From: Acidimicrobiales bacterium
GTDB taxonomy: Bacteria > Actinomycetota > Acidimicrobiia > Acidimicrobiales > Acidimicrobilacustridaceae
Reading direction: 5' to 3'
DNA: 64,000 nucleotides
NCBI GenBank assembly: GCA_025455885.1
Contig: JALOLR010000010.1
Span: 1-64,000, forward strand
Shown in pieces: positions 3,395-12,294 of the stretch. A model generated the notes under the pieces. The model ran no database searches. It worked only from the letters and a program-made list of their open reading frames with translations, and was not told where the DNA came from. Each line of letters begins with the position of its first letter. Position 1 is the first letter of the stretch. The translations under genes and the position numbers were made by a program.

Positions 3395-5269
3395 TCACGC
3401 CACGGGCAGCAGCCGGTCGAAGTCCCCGACCGACCCGCCGTCGTTCACGCAGGCGATGATCTCGTGCCCGAGCGGGTCGAGGTCGGGGAGGACGAACTTC
3501 TCGAGCTCGGCCACCGCGAAGTCCTGCAGCTGGCGGGCCCCCACGTCGTAGATCTCGGCGTGCAGCTCGCGTTGGAGCTCGACGTGGAAGAGCCAGCGGG
3601 GGATCTGCTGGCCCTCGACGGTGATCCCCATGGGCGCTCGTCCGAGCAGCGGCAGCCGGGCGTCGACGAGCGTCCCTGGTTCGAAGCGAGCCGAGCCGCG
3701 TCGGGCGAAGTACTCCCTCCCGATCCACTGCGGCATGAACCCCACCTTCCAGCACCCGATGTGCTGGTTGGGGAACAACAGGTAGTCCACGGCGGTGGTC
3801 GTCTGGATCTGGCGCAGCAGCAGGTTGGCCTGGTCGACGCGCCGACCCGTCGCGAAGGGCCAGTAGGAGCCGACGCCCTCGCTCGACATGCCCTCGGTGT
3901 CGACGATGCTCGGGTTGTCGTGCCCCCTCGGGGCGATGAGGCGCCACACCCAGGCCAGCGCGGGGGGCAGGCTGTGGAAGAGGCCGATGACCCCGTAGCT
4001 CGGGGTCTCCGCGGTGCACGGCGGCGTGCGGATGCCGAAGCTGCGGATGTCGACCTTCACGGTGCCGTCCACCACCCCGGGCACGATGTGACGGGGGATG
4101 ACCACCCGGGGGTTCGGGGTGGGGACGCCCGGGGCGTCCATGGTGTGCTCCCAGATGAGCGCCCGGCTGTCGGGGGCGGCGTCGATGTTGAGGAACAGCA
4201 ACGGCTCCGGCGGGTCGGCGGTGAGGCGTTCGAGGTTCGGGTCGGTGCCGTAGTGGGTGATGTGGTTCACGCGCACGAACCAGGCGTCCTCGGCGTCGCG
4301 CAGGTGCAGCTTGGCGTCGCCGGTCTGCAACGACGGGTGGCACATGGCCATGTCGTCGGTGACGGGACGCAGGTCGCAGGTCTGCGTGGGCAGGACGATC
4401 GTCCGCACGTCGTCGCGCAGGACGTTGCTCCCCAGGACGAGTGCACCGTCGGTCTGGCGGTGCGGGTACTCGAGCATCTCGCTCTTGCCCGACCCGCTGG
4501 CCCCCTCGTGCATGAAGGTGACGACGTTGTCGTAGGGCGTGACCACCTGGACCGTCGAGCAGTGGGCCACCACCCATCCCTCGTGCTCGCCGATGTTGAT
4601 GAGCACGCCGTAGACGCCCTTCTTGGCGCTGGGGCCGGGGTAGAGGTTGTAGCTGAAGAGCTCGTGGAGCGGCGGGTCGTCGCTGCGGTTGTGGACCACG
4701 ACCTGGCGCCCGTCGAAGTGCGTGTGACGGAAGGGCGGCGCCACGTACAGCACCGCTCTCGGCACGAACGGGTCGGGCAGGTCGTCGATGTCGACCAGGC
4801 CCTGGAGCAGGGCGAGGCCGAGTGCGAAGAAGCCGGCGTTGGCCGGTGCGACCACCACGGCCGGGACGCCGGTGTCGTGCTCGCCGGCGATGAACGGGAA
4901 CACCACCAGGTCCTGCTCGGCGAGCCAGTCGAGGGTCGCCTCGCGCACCGGCGCGAACTCCGCGCCGAAGCGGTCGCGGTAGTGGGTCTTGTCGGTCGGC
5001 AGGTCGTCGCCCACGACGAGGGCGTCGGCGTCACGGCGCCGCATGTACGGCTCCACGTAGTTGGCGCTCACGCCGTTGCGCACCGCGACGGCGACGGCCT
5101 CGACCACCCGTCCCCGACCCGGCACGTCGTAGGCCACTTCCGTGACCCCGTCGCCGACCGCGGCGGCGGCGAGCTCCTCCGTGGTCCGGGGGACCACGAC
5201 CGACGGGGCCCGCGAGAGGACCTCCACGGTGTCGGGGGGAAGGGTGAGTCGGCGCCACTGCTCGTCCAT
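3395..5269 (-). CDS. DUF4914-like protein with PEPCK-type P-loop
   Basis: A 624-residue protein that I recognise as resembling DUF4914, a family of about this length with no established reaction. The P-loop GASGSGKSE lies at residues 256-264 and a DD pair at 305-306. This arrangement resembles the kinase-1a and kinase-2 motifs of ATP-dependent phosphoenolpyruvate carboxykinase. Other striking strings are AYDVPGRG (47-54), EPYMRRRDAD (73-82), APANAGFFALGLA (141-153) and SEGVGSYWPFATGR (463-476). There is no signal peptide or membrane segment, so it is probably cytosolic. ATG 5269 follows TAGAGC at 6 nt. It is a single gene that converges with the LLM gene. A nucleotide-dependent kinase or carboxykinase activity is inference only. 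Confidence 0.7.
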   Translation of the reverse strand: MDEQWRRLTLPPDTVEVLSRAPSVVVPRTTEELAAAAVGDGVTEVAYDVPGRGRVVEAVAVAVRNGVSANYVEPYMRRRDADALVVGDDLPTDKTHYRDRFGAEFAPVREATLDWLAEQDLVVFPFIAGEHDTGVPAVVVAPANAGFFALGLALLQGLVDIDDLPDPFVPRAVLYVAPPFRHTHFDGRQVVVHNRSDDPPLHELFSYNLYPGPSAKKGVYGVLINIGEHEGWVVAHCSTVQVVTPYDNVVTFMHEGASGSGKSEMLEYPHRQTDGALVLGSNVLRDDVRTIVLPTQTCDLRPVTDDMAMCHPSLQTGDAKLHLRDAEDAWFVRVNHITHYGTDPNLERLTADPPEPLLFLNIDAAPDSRALIWEHTMDAPGVPTPNPRVVIPRHIVPGVVDGTVKVDIRSFGIRTPPCTAETPSYGVIGLFHSLPPALAWVWRLIAPRGHDNPSIVDTEGMSSEGVGSYWPFATGRRVDQANLLLRQIQTTTAVDYLLFPNQHIGCWKVGFMPQWIGREYFARRGSARFEPGTLVDARLPLLGRAPMGITVEGQQIPRWLFHVELQRELHAEIYDVGARQLQDFAVAELEKFVLPDLDPLGHEIIACVNDGGSVGDFDRLLPVA

Positions 5270-5412: not shown

Positions 5413-5730
5413 TCAGAAGAGGTCCAGTTGCTCGGTCCGCGCCGCCCGCTCCGGCAGGGGCTCCCACGCCACGCCGCCTCGGGGTCCGACGGTGCGCACC
5501 TCCACCAGCTCGAGGGGGAGGGCTCGCAGCGAGCCCTTCGCGTCACGCACGCCGAGGCTGCCGTCGGCCTCCCGACGCGAGACGACGCCCTCCTTCCAGC
5601 GCTCGGTGGGCCGGCGGCGGAAGCGGACGACGGCACCGGTGCGAAGGCCCAGCGCGGTCAGCCCGTCGAGGCGCCCTCCCGGGTCGGGGTCGCCTCCGCC
5701 TCTCCGGGCACGGGGGGCCCGGGGGGTCAC
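5413..5730 (-). CDS. Small protein ending in a beta-clamp-binding motif (QLDLF)
   Basis: A 105-residue protein of unrecognised family. Its last five residues are QLDLF, which matches the bacterial sliding-clamp (DnaN) binding consensus QL[SD]LF found at the C-termini of polymerases and repair proteins. Before it, GAVVRFRRRPTERWKEGVV...GSLGVRD...RALPLELVEV looks like a small beta-barrel of SH3 or Tudor type. The first 20 residues are Arg/Pro/Gly-rich and probably disordered. GTG 5730 overlaps the TGA of the upstream LLM gene (GTGA), so translation is coupled. A role in replication or repair is inference from the terminal motif alone. The coupling to an oxidoreductase does not explain it. Confidence 0.7.
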   Translation of the reverse strand: MTPRAPRARRGGGDPDPGGRLDGLTALGLRTGAVVRFRRRPTERWKEGVVSRREADGSLGVRDAKGSLRALPLELVEVRTVGPRGGVAWEPLPERAARTEQLDLF

Positions 5731-6731
5731 GACCCGGGTGCCGCCGGGACGCCGGCTGCGGCGACCATGGTGGCGCGCACGGTGGCCATCCGGTCCGGCC
5801 CCCAGGGCAACGGCATCACGACGGGCACCTCGACGCCGGCGTCGACGTAGGACCGCACGGTGGCGTGGACGTGCTCGGCGTCGCCCATCACGTCGATGGC
5901 GTCGATCATCCGGTCCGACACCGCCGCCAGCGCTCCCTCCCGGTCGCGGGCGGCGTGATGCTCCCGGATGGCCGCCACCTCGTCGGCGAACCCGGCCCGT
6001 TCGAAGTTGCGGGCGTAGCTGTCGACGACGGCGTAGGAGAACAGGTCGCGGCGGGCGAGCTCCACGCCGTCGGCCCGGTCGCAGACGCCCACGTGCACGT
6101 AGGCGTAGACGGTGGCGTCGCCCCCGGCGCGCACCTGCTCGACCGACCACGGGACGTGGGAGGCCGGGAGGTAGTTCAACAGCACGCCGTCGGCCACCTC
6201 GCCGGCGAGGCGCAACATCGCCGGGTTGAGGGCGGCGACGACGATCTCGGGGCGTCGCTCCCCGAGGCGCACCCCCAGCCGGAACCGGCGCACCTGGTAG
6301 TGGTCGCCCTCGAAGGTCACCGGCTCCCCGGACAGGCACTCGCGGAGGAGCGCGACGTACTCGCGGACCTGGGCGAGGGGGCGCTCGCCGTACTCCGCGC
6401 CGTGCCACTGTGAGGCCACGACGGGCGACGAGATCCCGATGCCGAGCAGGATGCGCCGCTCGGGGTGGAGCGCCTGCAGCGTCGCCCCGGCCATGGCCAC
6501 CACGCCCGGGGTGCGCAGCTGGAGGGCGATCACCCCCGTGCCGAGGTCGAGGCCCGGGTTGGCGGCACCCGCGGCCGCGAGGGTGACGAAGGCCTCGGGC
6601 CCGGTGGTCTCGGCGGTCCAGAAGGACGAGTAGCCGAGCTCCGTCGCCCACCCGGCCGCCGTGGCGGCACGGTCGAGGCCGAGGTTCATGAATCCGGCGA
6701 AGGTGACGCCCAGGTCGGGTACCGCTGACAT
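5727..6731 (-). CDS. LLM-class flavin-dependent oxidoreductase
   Basis: A 334-residue member of the luciferase-like family. It opens with VTFAGFMNLGLDR and FWTAETTGPEAF, then has LDLGTGVIALQLRTP and RRILLGIGISSPVVASQWHGA, the usual TIM-barrel strands. EIVVAALNPAMLRLAGEVADGVLLNYLP is the conserved C-terminal barrel half. It is shorter than the sulfonate monooxygenases and closer to actinobacterial F420-type enzymes (family knowledge), and its substrate is unknown. ATG 6731 has TAGCGT 7 nt upstream. Its stop overlaps the clamp-motif gene. It is one of three LLM genes in the first 21 kb. Confidence 0.85.
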   Translation of the reverse strand: MSAVPDLGVTFAGFMNLGLDRAATAAGWATELGYSSFWTAETTGPEAFVTLAAAGAANPGLDLGTGVIALQLRTPGVVAMAGATLQALHPERRILLGIGISSPVVASQWHGAEYGERPLAQVREYVALLRECLSGEPVTFEGDHYQVRRFRLGVRLGERRPEIVVAALNPAMLRLAGEVADGVLLNYLPASHVPWSVEQVRAGGDATVYAYVHVGVCDRADGVELARRDLFSYAVVDSYARNFERAGFADEVAAIREHHAARDREGALAAVSDRMIDAIDVMGDAEHVHATVRSYVDAGVEVPVVMPLPWGPDRMATVRATMVAAAGVPAAPGS

Positions 6732-6768: not shown

Positions 6769-8256
6769 CTACCAGCGCCCCGAGCGGGTGAGCAGGTACG
6801 CTTCGCCGGTCCGGGCCTCGCCCACCCAGCCGACGCGGGCCTCGAGGTCGCGGTTCGTGTTCCCGAAGCAGTCGGGCTGGTCGAGCGACACGGTGGCCGC
6901 CACCCCGTCGGTGCTCACGGCCGTCCCGAGCGTCTCACCCTCGCTGAGCACGTCGAGGCGCATGGTGGCGCCGGGCGGGGCGGTGAGCGTCACCCGTAGG
7001 ACGTTGTCGCAGAACAGGTTGAGCGAGTGGTCGACCCGGAACGGGTAGACGTCGACCGCGTCGGCGGGGACGAGGTTGGCCCGGATGCGGTCGACGAACT
7101 CCGCCCCGCCGACGTCGTCGGACGCGACCTCGCACCCGGTCGCCGGGTCGCCGTCGTAGTCGGCGCGCCCGGGCAGGCACGCGGTGCCGTCGGTGCCGAT
7201 CGCGGGCGGCTCCCCGCACGGCTGGTAGGGGAGGTCCTCGCACGGCGCGGGGTCGAACGGCACCAGACCGGTCGCGCTGAGGCCGTCGGCGTCGTCGAGA
7301 CGATCGGCGACGGCCACCGCGCCGAGCACCACGACCAGCGCCGCAGCGGTGCCGGCCGCCAGGCCGACCAGTCGTCCTCCTCGTCGCCGGGGTGCCGGAG
7401 CGGAGATCCGCGTGCCTTCGGGGCCGACGGCGTCCTCGGCCCCCGTCCGCCGCGAGGCTGCGGCCCGCCGGCCTCGTCCCGGGGCGCGGTCGACGGCGGC
7501 CACCGCGGCGCTCGGCCGGCGCTGTGGCGCCCGGGCCAGGGCCGGCGCCAGGCGCCGTCGCACCGAGCGGTCGAGGCCGGCCGGGAGGGGGGCGAGACGC
7601 CCACGGGCCGCCCTGGGGAGCAGGATCGCCGGGTCGCCCCGGCCGTAGGGCGGTTGGCCCGTCGCTCCGAACAGGAGCGTCGCCGCCAGGGAGAACACGT
7701 CGGCGGGCGGCCCGCTCTCCTCGCCCCGGGCCTGCTCGGGAGCCATGAACTCCGGGGTGCCGATCACCGCCCCCGTCACCGTCAGCCCCCCGGTCGAGTC
7801 GCGGATCGTGGCCACACCGAAGTCGGCGAGGAACGGCGTGCCCCGCTCGTCGAACAACACGTTGGCGGGCTTGATGTCGCGGTGGGTGATGCCCTGGCGG
7901 TGGGCGGCGGCCAGTGCCGCGAAGAGGGCATCGGCGAGCTCGTGGACCTGGCCCGGGCTGAGCGGGCCGTGGTGGTGGACCTGGTCGGCGAGCGTGCCAC
8001 CGGGGAGGTAGGGGAGCACGAGCACCACGTCGTCGCCGTCGTCGAGCACCTCGAGCAGCGGGACGATGTTGGGGTGGTCGAGCCGGGCGAGAGCGGCCGC
8101 CTCACGTCGGATCCGGGCCCGGGCACGGTGCATCTCGTGGGCGCTGCCGTGCAGGAGCAGCCGCTTGCAGGCCACCGGGCGGCCGGCGTCGTCGAGGGCG
8201 AGGTCGACCACGCCCATCCCGCCACGGCCGAGTCGGCGCTGCACCACGTAGCTCAC
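6769..8256 (-). CDS. Membrane Ser/Thr protein kinase (PknB-like)
   Basis: A 495-residue Hanks-type kinase. Visible motifs are the glycine loop GRGGMG (10-15), Lys31 in ACKRL, HRDIKPAN with catalytic Asp127, DFG at 145-147 and APE at 172-174. A low-complexity Arg/Ala/Pro linker (about 240-295) leads to one membrane helix at about 296-317. An outside domain of about 175 residues follows, with several cysteines (such as C339 and C347) and a weakly beta-like sequence. There are no PASTA repeats, so the sensor differs from PknB. GTG 8256 follows TAGGCT at 9 nt. It is divergent from a 56-residue protein that may share its regulation. Confidence 0.88.
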   Translation of the reverse strand: MSYVVQRRLGRGGMGVVDLALDDAGRPVACKRLLLHGSAHEMHRARARIRREAAALARLDHPNIVPLLEVLDDGDDVVLVLPYLPGGTLADQVHHHGPLSPGQVHELADALFAALAAAHRQGITHRDIKPANVLFDERGTPFLADFGVATIRDSTGGLTVTGAVIGTPEFMAPEQARGEESGPPADVFSLAATLLFGATGQPPYGRGDPAILLPRAARGRLAPLPAGLDRSVRRRLAPALARAPQRRPSAAVAAVDRAPGRGRRAAASRRTGAEDAVGPEGTRISAPAPRRRGGRLVGLAAGTAAALVVVLGAVAVADRLDDADGLSATGLVPFDPAPCEDLPYQPCGEPPAIGTDGTACLPGRADYDGDPATGCEVASDDVGGAEFVDRIRANLVPADAVDVYPFRVDHSLNLFCDNVLRVTLTAPPGATMRLDVLSEGETLGTAVSTDGVAATVSLDQPDCFGNTNRDLEARVGWVGEARTGEAYLLTRSGRW

Positions 8257-8390: not shown

Positions 8391-8561
8391 ATGACCGAGA
8401 CCCACGAGCACGAGAGCATCAGCGAGGCGCTGTCGATCATCGACCGGGCCCTCGGTGAGATGCTCAACCGAGAGCTCGTGAGCACCGACGAGGTGTCCGA
8501 CCTGTTGCTCGACGTGCGCACGCTGCTCACCAACGAGGACTCGGCGCTCGCCCAGAACTAG
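8391..8561 (+). CDS. Small acidic helical protein, unknown
   Basis: A 56-residue protein with a good Shine-Dalgarno (AGGAG) and a plausible promoter. It starts MTETHEHES and continues with two amphipathic helices (SEALSIIDRALGEMLN and STDEVSDLLLDVRTLLTN). There are no cysteines, membrane segment or signal peptide. I do not recognise the family. It faces away from the kinase gene across a 134-bp gap and converges with the WS/DGAT gene. It has Thr and Ser residues at both ends, but nothing shows that it is a kinase substrate. Confidence 0.7.
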   Translation: MTETHEHESISEALSIIDRALGEMLNRELVSTDEVSDLLLDVRTLLTNEDSALAQN

Positions 8562-8638: not shown

Positions 8639-10012
8639 TCAGGCGGCGAACAGCTCCGAGAAGCTCTGGCCGAGGAGCACGGCCAGACGCTCGGGATCGG
8701 TGACGGCGCCCTGGTCGGAGTGCAGGCCGATGTTGCACGTGCCGTCGTAGGAGAGCAGCGAGACGTTGAGCGCGGCCGCGGTGAGCGGACCGATCGGGTA
8801 GTCGGCCAGCACCTCGGCTCCGGCCAGCCAGAGGGGGACGGGCGCGCCGCGGAGGTTCGACGCCGCGAAGTCGACGGCGCGGGCCTGATCGCGTAGGACC
8901 CGGGTGACGAGCGGTGTCGGCAGGAGGTTGGCCACGCTGGCCAGCTGCTCGATGACCCCGAACGCCGGCTCGTCGCGGGCCGGGGCGAGGAGGTCGTGGA
9001 TCGTGGTGAGCCGACGTCGGGGATCCCCGTCGGTGACGGGGACGACGATCCGGGCGGGTACGAAGGCGTTGCCGGCGCCGGATCCCCGGCGGCGCAGGCT
9101 GACCGGCATGGCCATCCTCAGCTGCTCGGCCGGACGGCCGGACTCACGGTGCAGCTCGCCGATGGCGGCGGTCAGCGCGGTGACGAACACGTCGTTCACC
9201 GTGGCGCCGAACGCCCGGGCGGTGGCCTGCATCGGGGCCAGTGGCACGTCGAGCGTGTCGAGGCGGCGGCGCAACGTGCGGTTCGTCCACAGCGGCGACA
9301 AGGCACGGTCGTGGACCTTCAGCTGGTCGATCACCGACCGGGCCGTCTCCACCCCGGTCGACACCGCCCCCGGCACCTGGCCCGGATGGGCGACCAGAGT
9401 GACCGCCTCGCCCACGACGGACTGCGCCGCCCGCCCGGCTCGTTGCACGGCCACGCCGGCGGTCTGGGCGACGAGCCCCAGCGCCCCCGGGCCCGAAGCG
9501 TCCTGCATCGCAGGGGTGTGCTCGTCGAGGGGGGCGAGGCCGGGTTCGAGGTCGAGGATGGCGGCGGCCGCCCGCAGGCCCCCTTCGCCGTCGGTGATGG
9601 TGTGGTGGATCCGTTGGACCACGCCGGTCCCGCCGTCGGCGAGACCGGCGATCACGACGAACTCCCACTGCGGCCGATCGTCGGCGAAGGGCTCCTGCAC
9701 GAGCCGGACCGCGAGGTCGAGGAGCTGGCGGCGTGACCCCGGTGGCGGGAGCGTGACCGTGCGGAGGTGGTTGTCGACGTCGAACCGGGGATCGTCGCAC
9801 CATGCCGGCGGGGTGAGGCGGCCGACCGGGGTGCTGACCCGCTGGCCGAAGCGGGGGGTGTTGGCCACGAGGCGCAGCAGCCGACTGCGCAGGTGGTCGA
9901 TGTCCGGAGCGGAGCCCAGGACGGTGAGGCTCCCGAACGTGGGGTCGAGGAAGGGGTCGTGGCCGACGTGCCACATGAGCGCCTCGGAATCGCTCATCCA
10001 CCCCGTCGTCAT
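8639..10012 (-). CDS. Wax ester synthase / diacylglycerol acyltransferase (WS/DGAT)
   Basis: A 457-residue acyltransferase that would move acyl groups from acyl-CoA to alcohols or diacylglycerol, forming storage lipid. The catalytic HHxxxDG motif is HHTITDG at residues 136-142. The N-terminal sequence MSDSEALMWHVGHDP and the C-terminal NLRGAPVPLWLAGAEV (family PLF/NVxGP region) support the family. ATG 10012 was chosen over upstream codons because the family N-terminus begins there and GAGGAA lies about 9 nt before it. The gene follows a DsbA-like gene by 44 bp on the same strand. Whether it makes wax or triacylglycerol cannot be read from sequence. Confidence 0.9.
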   Translation of the reverse strand: MTTGWMSDSEALMWHVGHDPFLDPTFGSLTVLGSAPDIDHLRSRLLRLVANTPRFGQRVSTPVGRLTPPAWCDDPRFDVDNHLRTVTLPPPGSRRQLLDLAVRLVQEPFADDRPQWEFVVIAGLADGGTGVVQRIHHTITDGEGGLRAAAAILDLEPGLAPLDEHTPAMQDASGPGALGLVAQTAGVAVQRAGRAAQSVVGEAVTLVAHPGQVPGAVSTGVETARSVIDQLKVHDRALSPLWTNRTLRRRLDTLDVPLAPMQATARAFGATVNDVFVTALTAAIGELHRESGRPAEQLRMAMPVSLRRRGSGAGNAFVPARIVVPVTDGDPRRRLTTIHDLLAPARDEPAFGVIEQLASVANLLPTPLVTRVLRDQARAVDFAASNLRGAPVPLWLAGAEVLADYPIGPLTAAALNVSLLSYDGTCNIGLHSDQGAVTDPERLAVLLGQSFSELFAA

Positions 10013-10723: not shown

Positions 10724-11419
10724 TCAGGATCGGCGGCGCAGCGGCCAGACCTTGCGGGCGATCAGCCCCAGGGTGGTGCCCACCACCACGCCGCCCACGA
10801 CGTCGGAGGCGTGGTGGATGCGCACGTGCACCCGGCTCGCGGCGATCAGGCCGGCCAGGACGAAGTACAGCGGTTTGGCCTTCGTCCGGGGGTCGGCGGT
10901 CATGAGCAGCGAGGCGACCATTGCCGTGCTGGCGTGACCGCTCGGGAACGAGGTGGTGAGGGGGATGCGGATGCGGTACGGGCGGGTTTCCTGGACGACA
11001 GGGCGCTCGCGCTTGAACTGGCTCTTGACCACCCCGTTCAGCAGCGTCGACTCGGCGCCGAGCGCCACGGCCAGGCGGAACGCGGCGTCCGCGTCGGCGT
11101 CGGACCGCAGGCCCTTGGTGAACCCGATGAGCATCCAGATGAGCCCGAAGTCGCCGAGCTCGGTGAGCGCGTAGAGGACCCGGTCGGCCGGTTCGGTGCC
11201 TCTGATCCGGTCGAAGGCCCGGTCGACGGCATCGTCGAAGCGGTGGACCGCCGAGCGTCGGTGGGGCGGTTCGAAGCTGTGGTGCGGCAGCGGCAGCTCG
11301 GGGTGGGCCTCCGTGAGGCGCTCCAGCTCGGCGTCGAGGAGGTTCCGAGGTGGGAGGGGCTCGTCGGGGGCGGCGTCGTCGGCCGCAACGGCGTCGAGTC
11401 CGAGGTCTGGTGCGGTCAC
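10724..11419 (-). CDS. PAP2-family membrane phosphatase
   Basis: A 231-residue PAP2 phosphatase with all three signature motifs: KSQFKRERP (K-x6-RP), SFPSGHAS (PSGH) and SRVHVRIHHASD (SR-x5-H-x3-D). These enzymes remove phosphate from lipid phosphates such as undecaprenyl diphosphate or phosphatidate. Hydrophobic stretches around ALTELGDFGLIWMLIGF and PLYFVLAGLIAAS support membrane insertion. GTG 11419 overlaps the TGA of the upstream nuclease gene (GTGA). The N-terminal 70 residues are acidic and proline-rich and not part of the core. The lipid substrate is not determined. Confidence 0.85.
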   Translation of the reverse strand: MTAPDLGLDAVAADDAAPDEPLPPRNLLDAELERLTEAHPELPLPHHSFEPPHRRSAVHRFDDAVDRAFDRIRGTEPADRVLYALTELGDFGLIWMLIGFTKGLRSDADADAAFRLAVALGAESTLLNGVVKSQFKRERPVVQETRPYRIRIPLTTSFPSGHASTAMVASLLMTADPRTKAKPLYFVLAGLIAASRVHVRIHHASDVVGGVVVGTTLGLIARKVWPLRRRS

Positions 11420-12294
11420 CGGGCTGATGCTATGGGCACGGCCGTGCCGGCTCCGCCCGTGGCCGTCCCGGTCGCCTCGGCGGCGGCCCGCCGCAGCTCG
11501 ACGGCGACGCGTCGACCCTCCTCGGGGTCGCCGCCGAAGGCCGGGCAGTACGGCCGGTAGGCGCAGTAGTCGCACAGGCGCGAGGTGCGGGGTCGGAAGT
11601 CGTCGCGCTCGCAGGCTCGCTCGATGGCGGACCAGATGGCCTTGACCTTGCGCTCGAGCGCCCGCACCGACTGCTCGCTCGGCACGGTGGTGATCGCCAC
11701 GGGGTCGGCGAGGTAGAGGAGCTGGACCCGGGCCGGTCGCCGTCCGAGGACGCGTTCGCAGAGGAACGCGTAGAAGTGGACGCCGCTGAGGCGGGACTGC
11801 TCGAAGTTGGCGCCCGGCGCCCGACCCGTCTTGTAGTCGGTGACCACCAGTTCGCCGTCGCCGTCGACCTCGAGGCGGTCGATGATCCCGCGGAGGCGGA
11901 GGCCGTCGAGCTCGACGTCGAGCTTCAGCTCGAGGCCGATCGGGGTGACGGCGGTGGGGTCCTCGATGTGGAAGTAGCGCTGCACCAGCGCCGCCGCCTC
12001 GTCGGTGAGCGTCGCCCGCTCGTCGTCGTCGAGGTCGAGCGCCAGCAGCTCCGGGTCGTCGGCCATCGCGGCGGCGGCTTCGACGAGGCAGGTGGCCGCG
12101 GCGTCGGGGGTCCGGTCGTGGGGGGCGCGGAGCATGAGCAGCTCGAGCGCGGCGTGGACCAGCGTGCCTCTGACCGTGGCGACGGTGGGCGGATCGGGGA
12201 GGCGGTCGATGGCCGAGAACCGGAAGGCGAGCGCACACTCGCTGAACGACGACACCTTCGACGGCGACAGCGAGGTGGGCAGCTCGAGCGGCAT
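11416..12294 (-). CDS. Cas4/RecB-like PD-(D/E)XK nuclease with Fe-S cysteines
   Basis: A 292-residue nuclease of the RecB/Cas4-like PD-(D/E)XK group. Visible residues are His47 (RGTLVHAALE), Asp139 (RGIIDRLEV), and Asp153 and Lys155 in VVTDYKTG. Cys20 and a C-terminal trio Cys241, Cys244 and Cys250 (CDYCAYRPYC) are arranged as in 4Fe-4S nucleases such as Cas4 and AddB. No cas genes or CRISPR repeats are nearby, so a housekeeping DNA-repair role is more likely than adaptation. ATG 12294 is the family start, with TACCCT 6 nt upstream and GGAG close by. It is coupled to the PAP2 gene by a 4-base overlap, with no obvious functional reason. Confidence 0.85.
   Translation of the reverse strand: MPLELPTSLSPSKVSSFSECALAFRFSAIDRLPDPPTVATVRGTLVHAALELLMLRAPHDRTPDAAATCLVEAAAAMADDPELLALDLDDDERATLTDEAAALVQRYFHIEDPTAVTPIGLELKLDVELDGLRLRGIIDRLEVDGDGELVVTDYKTGRAPGANFEQSRLSGVHFYAFLCERVLGRRPARVQLLYLADPVAITTVPSEQSVRALERKVKAIWSAIERACERDDFRPRTSRLCDYCAYRPYCPAFGGDPEEGRRVAVELRRAAAEATGTATGGAGTAVPIASAR

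Follow-up and report, generated by a model that had tools for sequence, protein, structure and literature searches.

A family of small barrel proteins in Acidimicrobiales with a conserved C-terminal motif of the sliding-clamp-binding type

Introduction

The known interactome of the bacterial sliding clamp DnaN is still growing and consists mostly of polymerases, nucleases and mismatch-repair factors. The motifs by which these proteins dock adopt an extended conformation when bound to the clamp, and Trp at the fifth position of the motif is reported to weaken the binding. According to a review of the beta clamp, the natural motif is Q-phi-x-[L/M]-[F/L], with a tolerant position 3 and with F, L or I accepted at position 5; QLDLF is reported there as the strongest-binding pentapeptide (PMC11139829). 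Tail motifs of this type are carried by the polymerases Pol IV (QLVLGL) and Pol V (QLNLF), as well as by a non-polymerase ligand, Hda, whose QLSLPL motif is part of a disordered terminus (PMC11139829). In Actinobacteria, the NucS endonuclease has a C-terminal [E/K]-[L/Y]-[T/R]-L-F sequence, and Corynebacterium NucS requires its C-terminus to bind the clamp (PMC8228993).

Here, we describe a gene encoding a small protein with such a tail, found in a 64,000-nucleotide stretch of DNA from an Acidimicrobiales bacterium (hereafter the window). We propose, with a probability of roughly 0.7, that its product is a small accessory protein docked on the clamp, which would probably recruit or orient a partner there, perhaps a base-repair enzyme. 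As the protein matches no named family, we refer to it as the orphan protein.

Results

A single-copy gene under purifying selection

Translation of positions 5413-5730 on the minus strand yields a protein of 105 amino acids, the C-terminal end of which is ERAARTEQLDLF followed by the stop codon. Its last five residues are thus exactly the consensus pentapeptide QLDLF, as a first, sequence-only reading of this DNA had stated. The gene was also predicted by a codon-usage gene caller and is single-copy in the window genome (3.29 Mb, 33 contigs). Pairwise dN/dS values of about 0.02-0.43 were obtained with 17 pairs of homologues, showing that purifying selection acts on this frame. The whole protein is strongly basic, with a net charge of +7 and a pI of about 11.4. 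The coordinates of the gene, of its segments and of its neighbours are collected in Table 1.

Table 1. Features of the orphan gene and of its surroundings in the window
Feature	Position	Strand	Remarks
DUF4914 gene (PF16260)	3395..5269	-	downstream; 624 aa, E 2.2e-288; occupies the Mug position of relatives
Orphan gene	5413..5730	-	105 aa barrel protein with C-terminal motif of the clamp-binding type; GTG start
QLDLF motif, residues 101-105	5416..5430	-	C-terminal clamp-binding motif (definition: PMC11139829)
Helix/linker, residues 92-100	5431..5457	-	precedes the motif; glycine stretch instead in one genus
Tudor/KOW/SH3-like small barrel, residues 23-91	5458..5664	-	AlphaFold2 and fold comparison
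Basic N-terminus, residues 1-21	5668..5730	-	predicted disordered; length differs among homologues
LLM-class F420-dependent oxidoreductase gene (TIGR03841)	5727..6731	-	upstream block neighbour, 4-nt overlap
Serine/threonine protein kinase-like gene	6769..8256	-	syntenic block; named by sequence reading
Wax-ester synthase/DGAT-like gene	8639..10012	-	syntenic block; named by sequence reading
Stand-alone PD-(D/E)XK nuclease-like gene (PF12705)	11416..12294	-	syntenic block

The family is found only in Acidimicrobiales

The window protein had no family match in Pfam, NCBIfam or PHROG. Among family members, the best weak match in Pfam/NCBIfam was BPL_C (E 0.0047), and profile searches against solved structures returned weak Tudor-like or unrelated matches only (E 0.066 or worse). 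The earlier description of the protein as an orphan therefore holds for these databases. It does not hold for genomes, where the protein belongs to a family of the order Acidimicrobiales. Homologues were present in 43 of 61 relatives and in 64 of the 297 Acidimicrobiales genomes with a completeness of at least 85%; the named homologue loci are from Microthrixaceae, Acidimicrobiales and Acidimicrobiia. When 396 genomes of the phylum were searched with a broad 38-row profile, strong matches (E 1.7e-27 or better) occurred only in Acidimicrobiales, and the matches outside this order were partial, with E above 0.001. Overall, the gene stands for an undescribed family whose members were all found in Acidimicrobiales. 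Two Anaerolineales matches were discarded as a short chance likeness in a protein reading as RbfA-like. No phage or plasmid record matched the orphan protein and a phage or plasmid origin was rejected on this ground.

The protein is predicted to fold as a small barrel

An AlphaFold2 model was obtained from 16 alignment rows, with a mean pLDDT of 79. Strands are drawn at residues 34-37, 46-53, 59-63, 68-71, 76-81 and 87-91, pLDDT being about 90 for the 34-91 region. Residues 92-104, which include most of the motif, are drawn as one helix with fair confidence, and N-terminal residues 6-21 have pLDDT values below 50. The five or six strands of a small barrel are thus present in the model, and chains of the Tudor, KOW and SH3-like types fill the list of fold matches. 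Indeed, VIA-align ranked a KOW domain of Spt5 at the top (Z 8.2, rmsd 2.6, 71 residues), followed by the Tudor domains of PHF1 (Z 7.0) and 53BP1 (Z about 7), and Foldseek added the C-terminal domains of biotin protein ligases. Z values of at most 8.2 may reflect the common barrel arrangement alone and imply no function. Across homologues, the invariant residues of the barrel are R36, D56-G57-S58, D63, G66 and W89. Both structural predictions made from the sequence, a small beta-barrel of SH3 or Tudor type and a basic disordered N-terminus, are supported by the model and the fold comparison.

The C-terminal motif is conserved behind a variable linker

Conservation of the motif was examined in 83 unique homologues, with 940 other proteins from the same loci serving as background. 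The sequence Qxx[LIMF][FLIWM] is found at or near the C-terminus in 80 of the 83 homologues, which come from many Acidimicrobiales families. With the stricter definition QΦx[LM][FLI] within the last 35 residues, 71/83 homologues are positive as compared to 4/940 background proteins, and Q[LMIVA]x[LM][FLI] forms the exact C-terminal end in 57/83 as compared to 0/940. These two contrasts show that the motif is not due to chance; the homologues are related to each other and the counts are not independent events. In the 80 sequences, positional entropies are 0.00 bits for the Q, 0.67 for position 2 (L/M), 2.83 for position 3, 0.56 for position 4 (L) and 1.47 for position 5 (L/F/W/I). Synonymous codons vary at most conserved motif positions. 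The free third position and the F, L or I at the last one agree with the published definition of the clamp motif. Trp is found at position 5 in five sequences. K or R at position 3 together with L at position 5 is seen in many homologues; such tails are probably weaker than QLDLF.

Conservation of a C-terminal QLxLF together with variation of the linker had been set as a test beforehand. This is the pattern observed, since 80/83 homologues keep the motif while the residues preceding it vary. In genus g291 (L127-L133), a glycine-rich stretch stands in place of ERAARTE, and GGG[LF]QLG[LM]F is kept. In family f7, VAVTWE or VAITWE precedes QLELF, QLTLF or QLQLW, and VATTWE precedes QLPLF. L042 has an entirely different linker and still keeps QLDLFD. 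The motif is C-terminal in the window protein; in L069, L138, L158 and L160 disordered-looking tails follow QLDLF or QLGLF. Such extensions favour an accessible position of the motif, whereas the helix drawn by AlphaFold2 does not. A long tail after QLELF was also seen in a homologue from a single-contig genome of 4,830,181 bases (L041:1423-1764, L080:7899-8240), and the HPTLFD sequence that ends it is perhaps a second, imperfect motif.

Two homologues, L092 (QLQLE) and L135 (QLAFRLPD), depart from the motif. In L134, the C-terminal motif is lost and DQPNLFD, containing QPNLF, is found near the N-terminus (L134:5088-5357). A frame error is unlikely there because the stop overlaps the next gene. 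This N-terminal QPNLF is possibly a relocated clamp motif; it is seen in one sequence and may be due to chance.

On the side of the clamp, alignment with solved clamps showed that TDSYRL, PNYR and MP, the segments of the peptide pocket, are preserved in the DnaN of the window genome. Other clamp binders encoded in the same genomes as the family use similar motifs, DinB-type polymerases carrying QLDLF (L162) or QLSLL (L163, L172). In Acidimicrobiales genomes having the orphan family, NucS ends with ELRLF, suggesting that in this group an arginine in the third position does not stand in the way of clamp binding. NucS was also considered as a client devoid of its own clamp motif, and rejected because it carries ELRLF and because its co-occurrence with the orphan gene was not significant (p = 0.09). 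Overall, the conservation of the motif supports the earlier idea of an undescribed clamp-associated factor, the binding to the clamp being predicted from sequence.

Coupling to the LLM oxidoreductase gene reflects a syntenic block

The window gene belongs to a conserved block. Its first part comprises genes for an alpha/beta hydrolase, a PD-(D/E)XK nuclease, a PAP2 protein, a DsbA-like protein and a wax-ester-synthase-like protein, and a small antisense ORF; then come a kinase, the LLM oxidoreductase, an SDR, the orphan protein, Mug and DUF7064, some of these names being drawn from sequence only. In many relatives the SDR gene lies between the LLM and orphan genes, and elsewhere neither is adjacent to the orphan gene. 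As in the window, an LLM gene is directly upstream in several more genomes from the same family. Because relatives carry the SDR gene in between, the coupling seen in the window is a remnant of the block. It is ordinary block synteny and not a functional clue. Thus, the translational overlap pointed out by the earlier reading is real (4 nt, GTG start over TGA stop), but it does not stay unexplained.

Two side observations concern this block. In L077:8170-9528, the SDR and orphan genes form one open frame of 452 codons, corresponding to a fusion or a read-through linker. Besides, a 56-residue ORF of the window at 8391-8561 (+) (MTETHEHESISEALSIIDRALGEMLNRELVSTDEVSDLLLDVRTLLTNED...) is a conserved orphan microprotein with no Pfam match; in the first neighbourhood set, 25 loci carry a relative of it at the corresponding place.

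The orphan gene often adjoins base-repair genes

By hand count over distinct genomes, a gene for a Mug-type DNA glycosylase directly follows the orphan gene in 24 genomes and comes one gene further on in 2. This adjacency spans at least six families, and the two genes often overlap by 4 nt or are less than 25 nt apart. Identification as Mug rests on PF03167 above cut-off, NF007570 and TIGR00584 being below theirs. The Mug neighbour belongs to the wider syntenic block. Outside the block, where the orphan gene lies in seven loci, it overlaps an AlkA-like glycosylase gene in L134 (NF007641 below cut-off, nothing in Pfam, and matches to AlkA structures at E about 1e-5) and is convergent with an endonuclease IV gene in L137 (NF002198 equivalog, E 1.5e-122). 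Finding two repair genes in 14 neighbour slots outside the block has a probability of 0.0004-0.008, from a post hoc count that assumes a repair-gene rate of 0.002-0.01 per slot. When each family was represented by one genome, 9/9 genomes with the orphan gene had Mug as compared to 6/15 of those without it (p = 0.007). Since the orphan gene often adjoins base-repair genes, its product may be an undescribed DNA-repair helper.

The association is nevertheless not strict. The window genome has no Mug-like match, its only UDG-superfamily match being elsewhere on C2, and some relatives also have the orphan gene without any Mug-like match. Conversely, Mug occurs in the same block without the orphan gene in L226, L230 and L231, and in family f7 the orphan gene is apart from its more distant Mug. 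As each gene occurs without the other, the family as a whole cannot be an obligate subunit of Mug. Because Mug is missing from the window genome, the link to repair is something that we infer. The Mug proteins themselves showed no clamp motif at their termini. The idea that the motif has moved into Mug where the orphan gene is missing was rejected, those Mug proteins having no terminal motif either. The closeness to an imuB-dnaE2 cassette (about 15-90 kb, several genomes) was too loose to count. In L063:8249-9409, L069:6848-7978 and L070:4917-6062, Mug is fused at its N-terminus to a methyltransferase-like domain, which is shortened or missing in relatives.

Discussion

From its motif, we consider docking of the orphan protein on the clamp as quite probable. 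The C-terminal QLDLF would insert in the peptide-binding pocket of DnaN, a site also used by polymerases and NucS. Because bound motifs are extended and the predicted helix 92-104 reaches into the pentapeptide, the tail would have to unfold for docking. Once docked, the protein would hold its basic Tudor/KOW-like barrel close to nascent DNA. Having no catalytic domain, the barrel would most likely serve to recruit or orient a partner there. Foremost among the candidate partners are the products of the genes adjoining in relatives, namely a Mug-type or AlkA-type glycosylase, or endonuclease IV. In the window genome, devoid of Mug, the client would be another protein. A role in base repair, to which the gene neighbourhood points, is put forward tentatively. 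More doubtful is the idea of a clamp adaptor dedicated to base-excision repair in bacteria, in which a stand-alone Tudor-like barrel, anchored to DnaN through its tail, would deliver glycosylases and an AP endonuclease to DNA that has just been replicated.

Other explanations share part of the same evidence. The protein could be a subunit dedicated to the Mug-type mismatch/uracil glycosylase; Mug has no clamp motif of its own and would obtain one in trans. The position of the orphan gene immediately before Mug, the short distances and the family-level co-occurrence speak for it, whereas the organisms having the orphan gene without a Mug-like match, the Mug genes standing alone in the block and the separation of the two genes in family f7 make it unlikely. 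Alternatively, the protein could regulate clamp occupancy by binding DnaN via QLDLF, either competing with or displacing polymerases, or regulating initiation like Hda. The lack of a catalytic domain, a motif of the high-affinity type, the persistence of the gene in the Mug-less window genome and the fact that Hda, which regulates initiation, is itself listed among clamp binders (PMC11139829) would all suit a regulator. However, the protein has no AAA+ or other regulatory domain, its neighbours indicate repair rather than initiation, and the many tails of the QLRLL/QLKLL type, probably weaker, would be a poor choice for a competitor. Such a regulator is thus improbable in our opinion.

The conserved tail itself could form a helix with a structural role, or serve to dock some protein different from DnaN, in which case the resemblance to a clamp motif would be convergent. 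The single helix of the AlphaFold2 model agrees with this, as does the upstream conservation of W89, A96, R98 and E100 in most members. In contrast, the helix is dispensable in L127-L133 while the pentapeptide is kept, the free third position and F/L/I end follow the clamp rule, disordered extensions come after the motif in several members, and Q-x-x-L-F appears at the other end of the protein in L134. We therefore give this explanation little weight. Finally, a functional coupling to the LLM gene would place the protein in F420-dependent metabolism. The GTG/TGA overlap, and the LLM gene directly upstream in genomes of the same family, could be read in this sense, but the intervening or non-adjacent genes of relatives, the orphan genes found wholly outside the block and the absence of any metabolic hint in fold or motif render it extremely improbable.

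Docking of an accessory protein on DnaN thus remains the preferred reading. What is new here is a previously unnamed family of small barrel proteins, whereas the predicted docking on DnaN by a short motif is of a known kind. A literature search for a bacterial Tudor-type clamp ligand returned none, and we know of no such clamp-adaptor architecture described in bacteria. If the proposal is true, a tiny non-enzymatic ligand, conserved order-wide and encoded beside several base-repair genes, would make the coupling of base excision to the clamp through an adaptor directly testable. In addition, about 80 natural tails form a data set for checking the clamp-motif rule, including loss of the helix and possible relocation of the motif.

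The orphan protein can be compared with several known systems. It has the barrel arrangement of Spt5 KOW, PHF1, 53BP1 and the biotin protein ligase C-terminal domain, but it differs from the named Tudor, KOW and SH3 sequence families, having no curated profile match. Mug-type DNA glycosylases (UDG family 2) are its direct gene neighbours and a possible working partner; they are separate, non-homologous proteins and are missing from the window genome. Actinobacterial NucS/EndoMS has a C-terminal motif of the same shape, needed for its activation by the clamp (PMC8228993), but is a mismatch endonuclease of another fold, in which no relation to the orphan protein was seen. Hda is, like the predicted ligand, not a polymerase; it is a DnaA-like AAA+ regulator of initiation, whereas the orphan protein is a Tudor-like barrel only. 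With Pol IV and Pol V, the window motif has the pentapeptide rule in common (PMC11139829). These two are polymerases, whereas the predicted ligand described here is a barrel of 105 residues devoid of an enzymatic domain.
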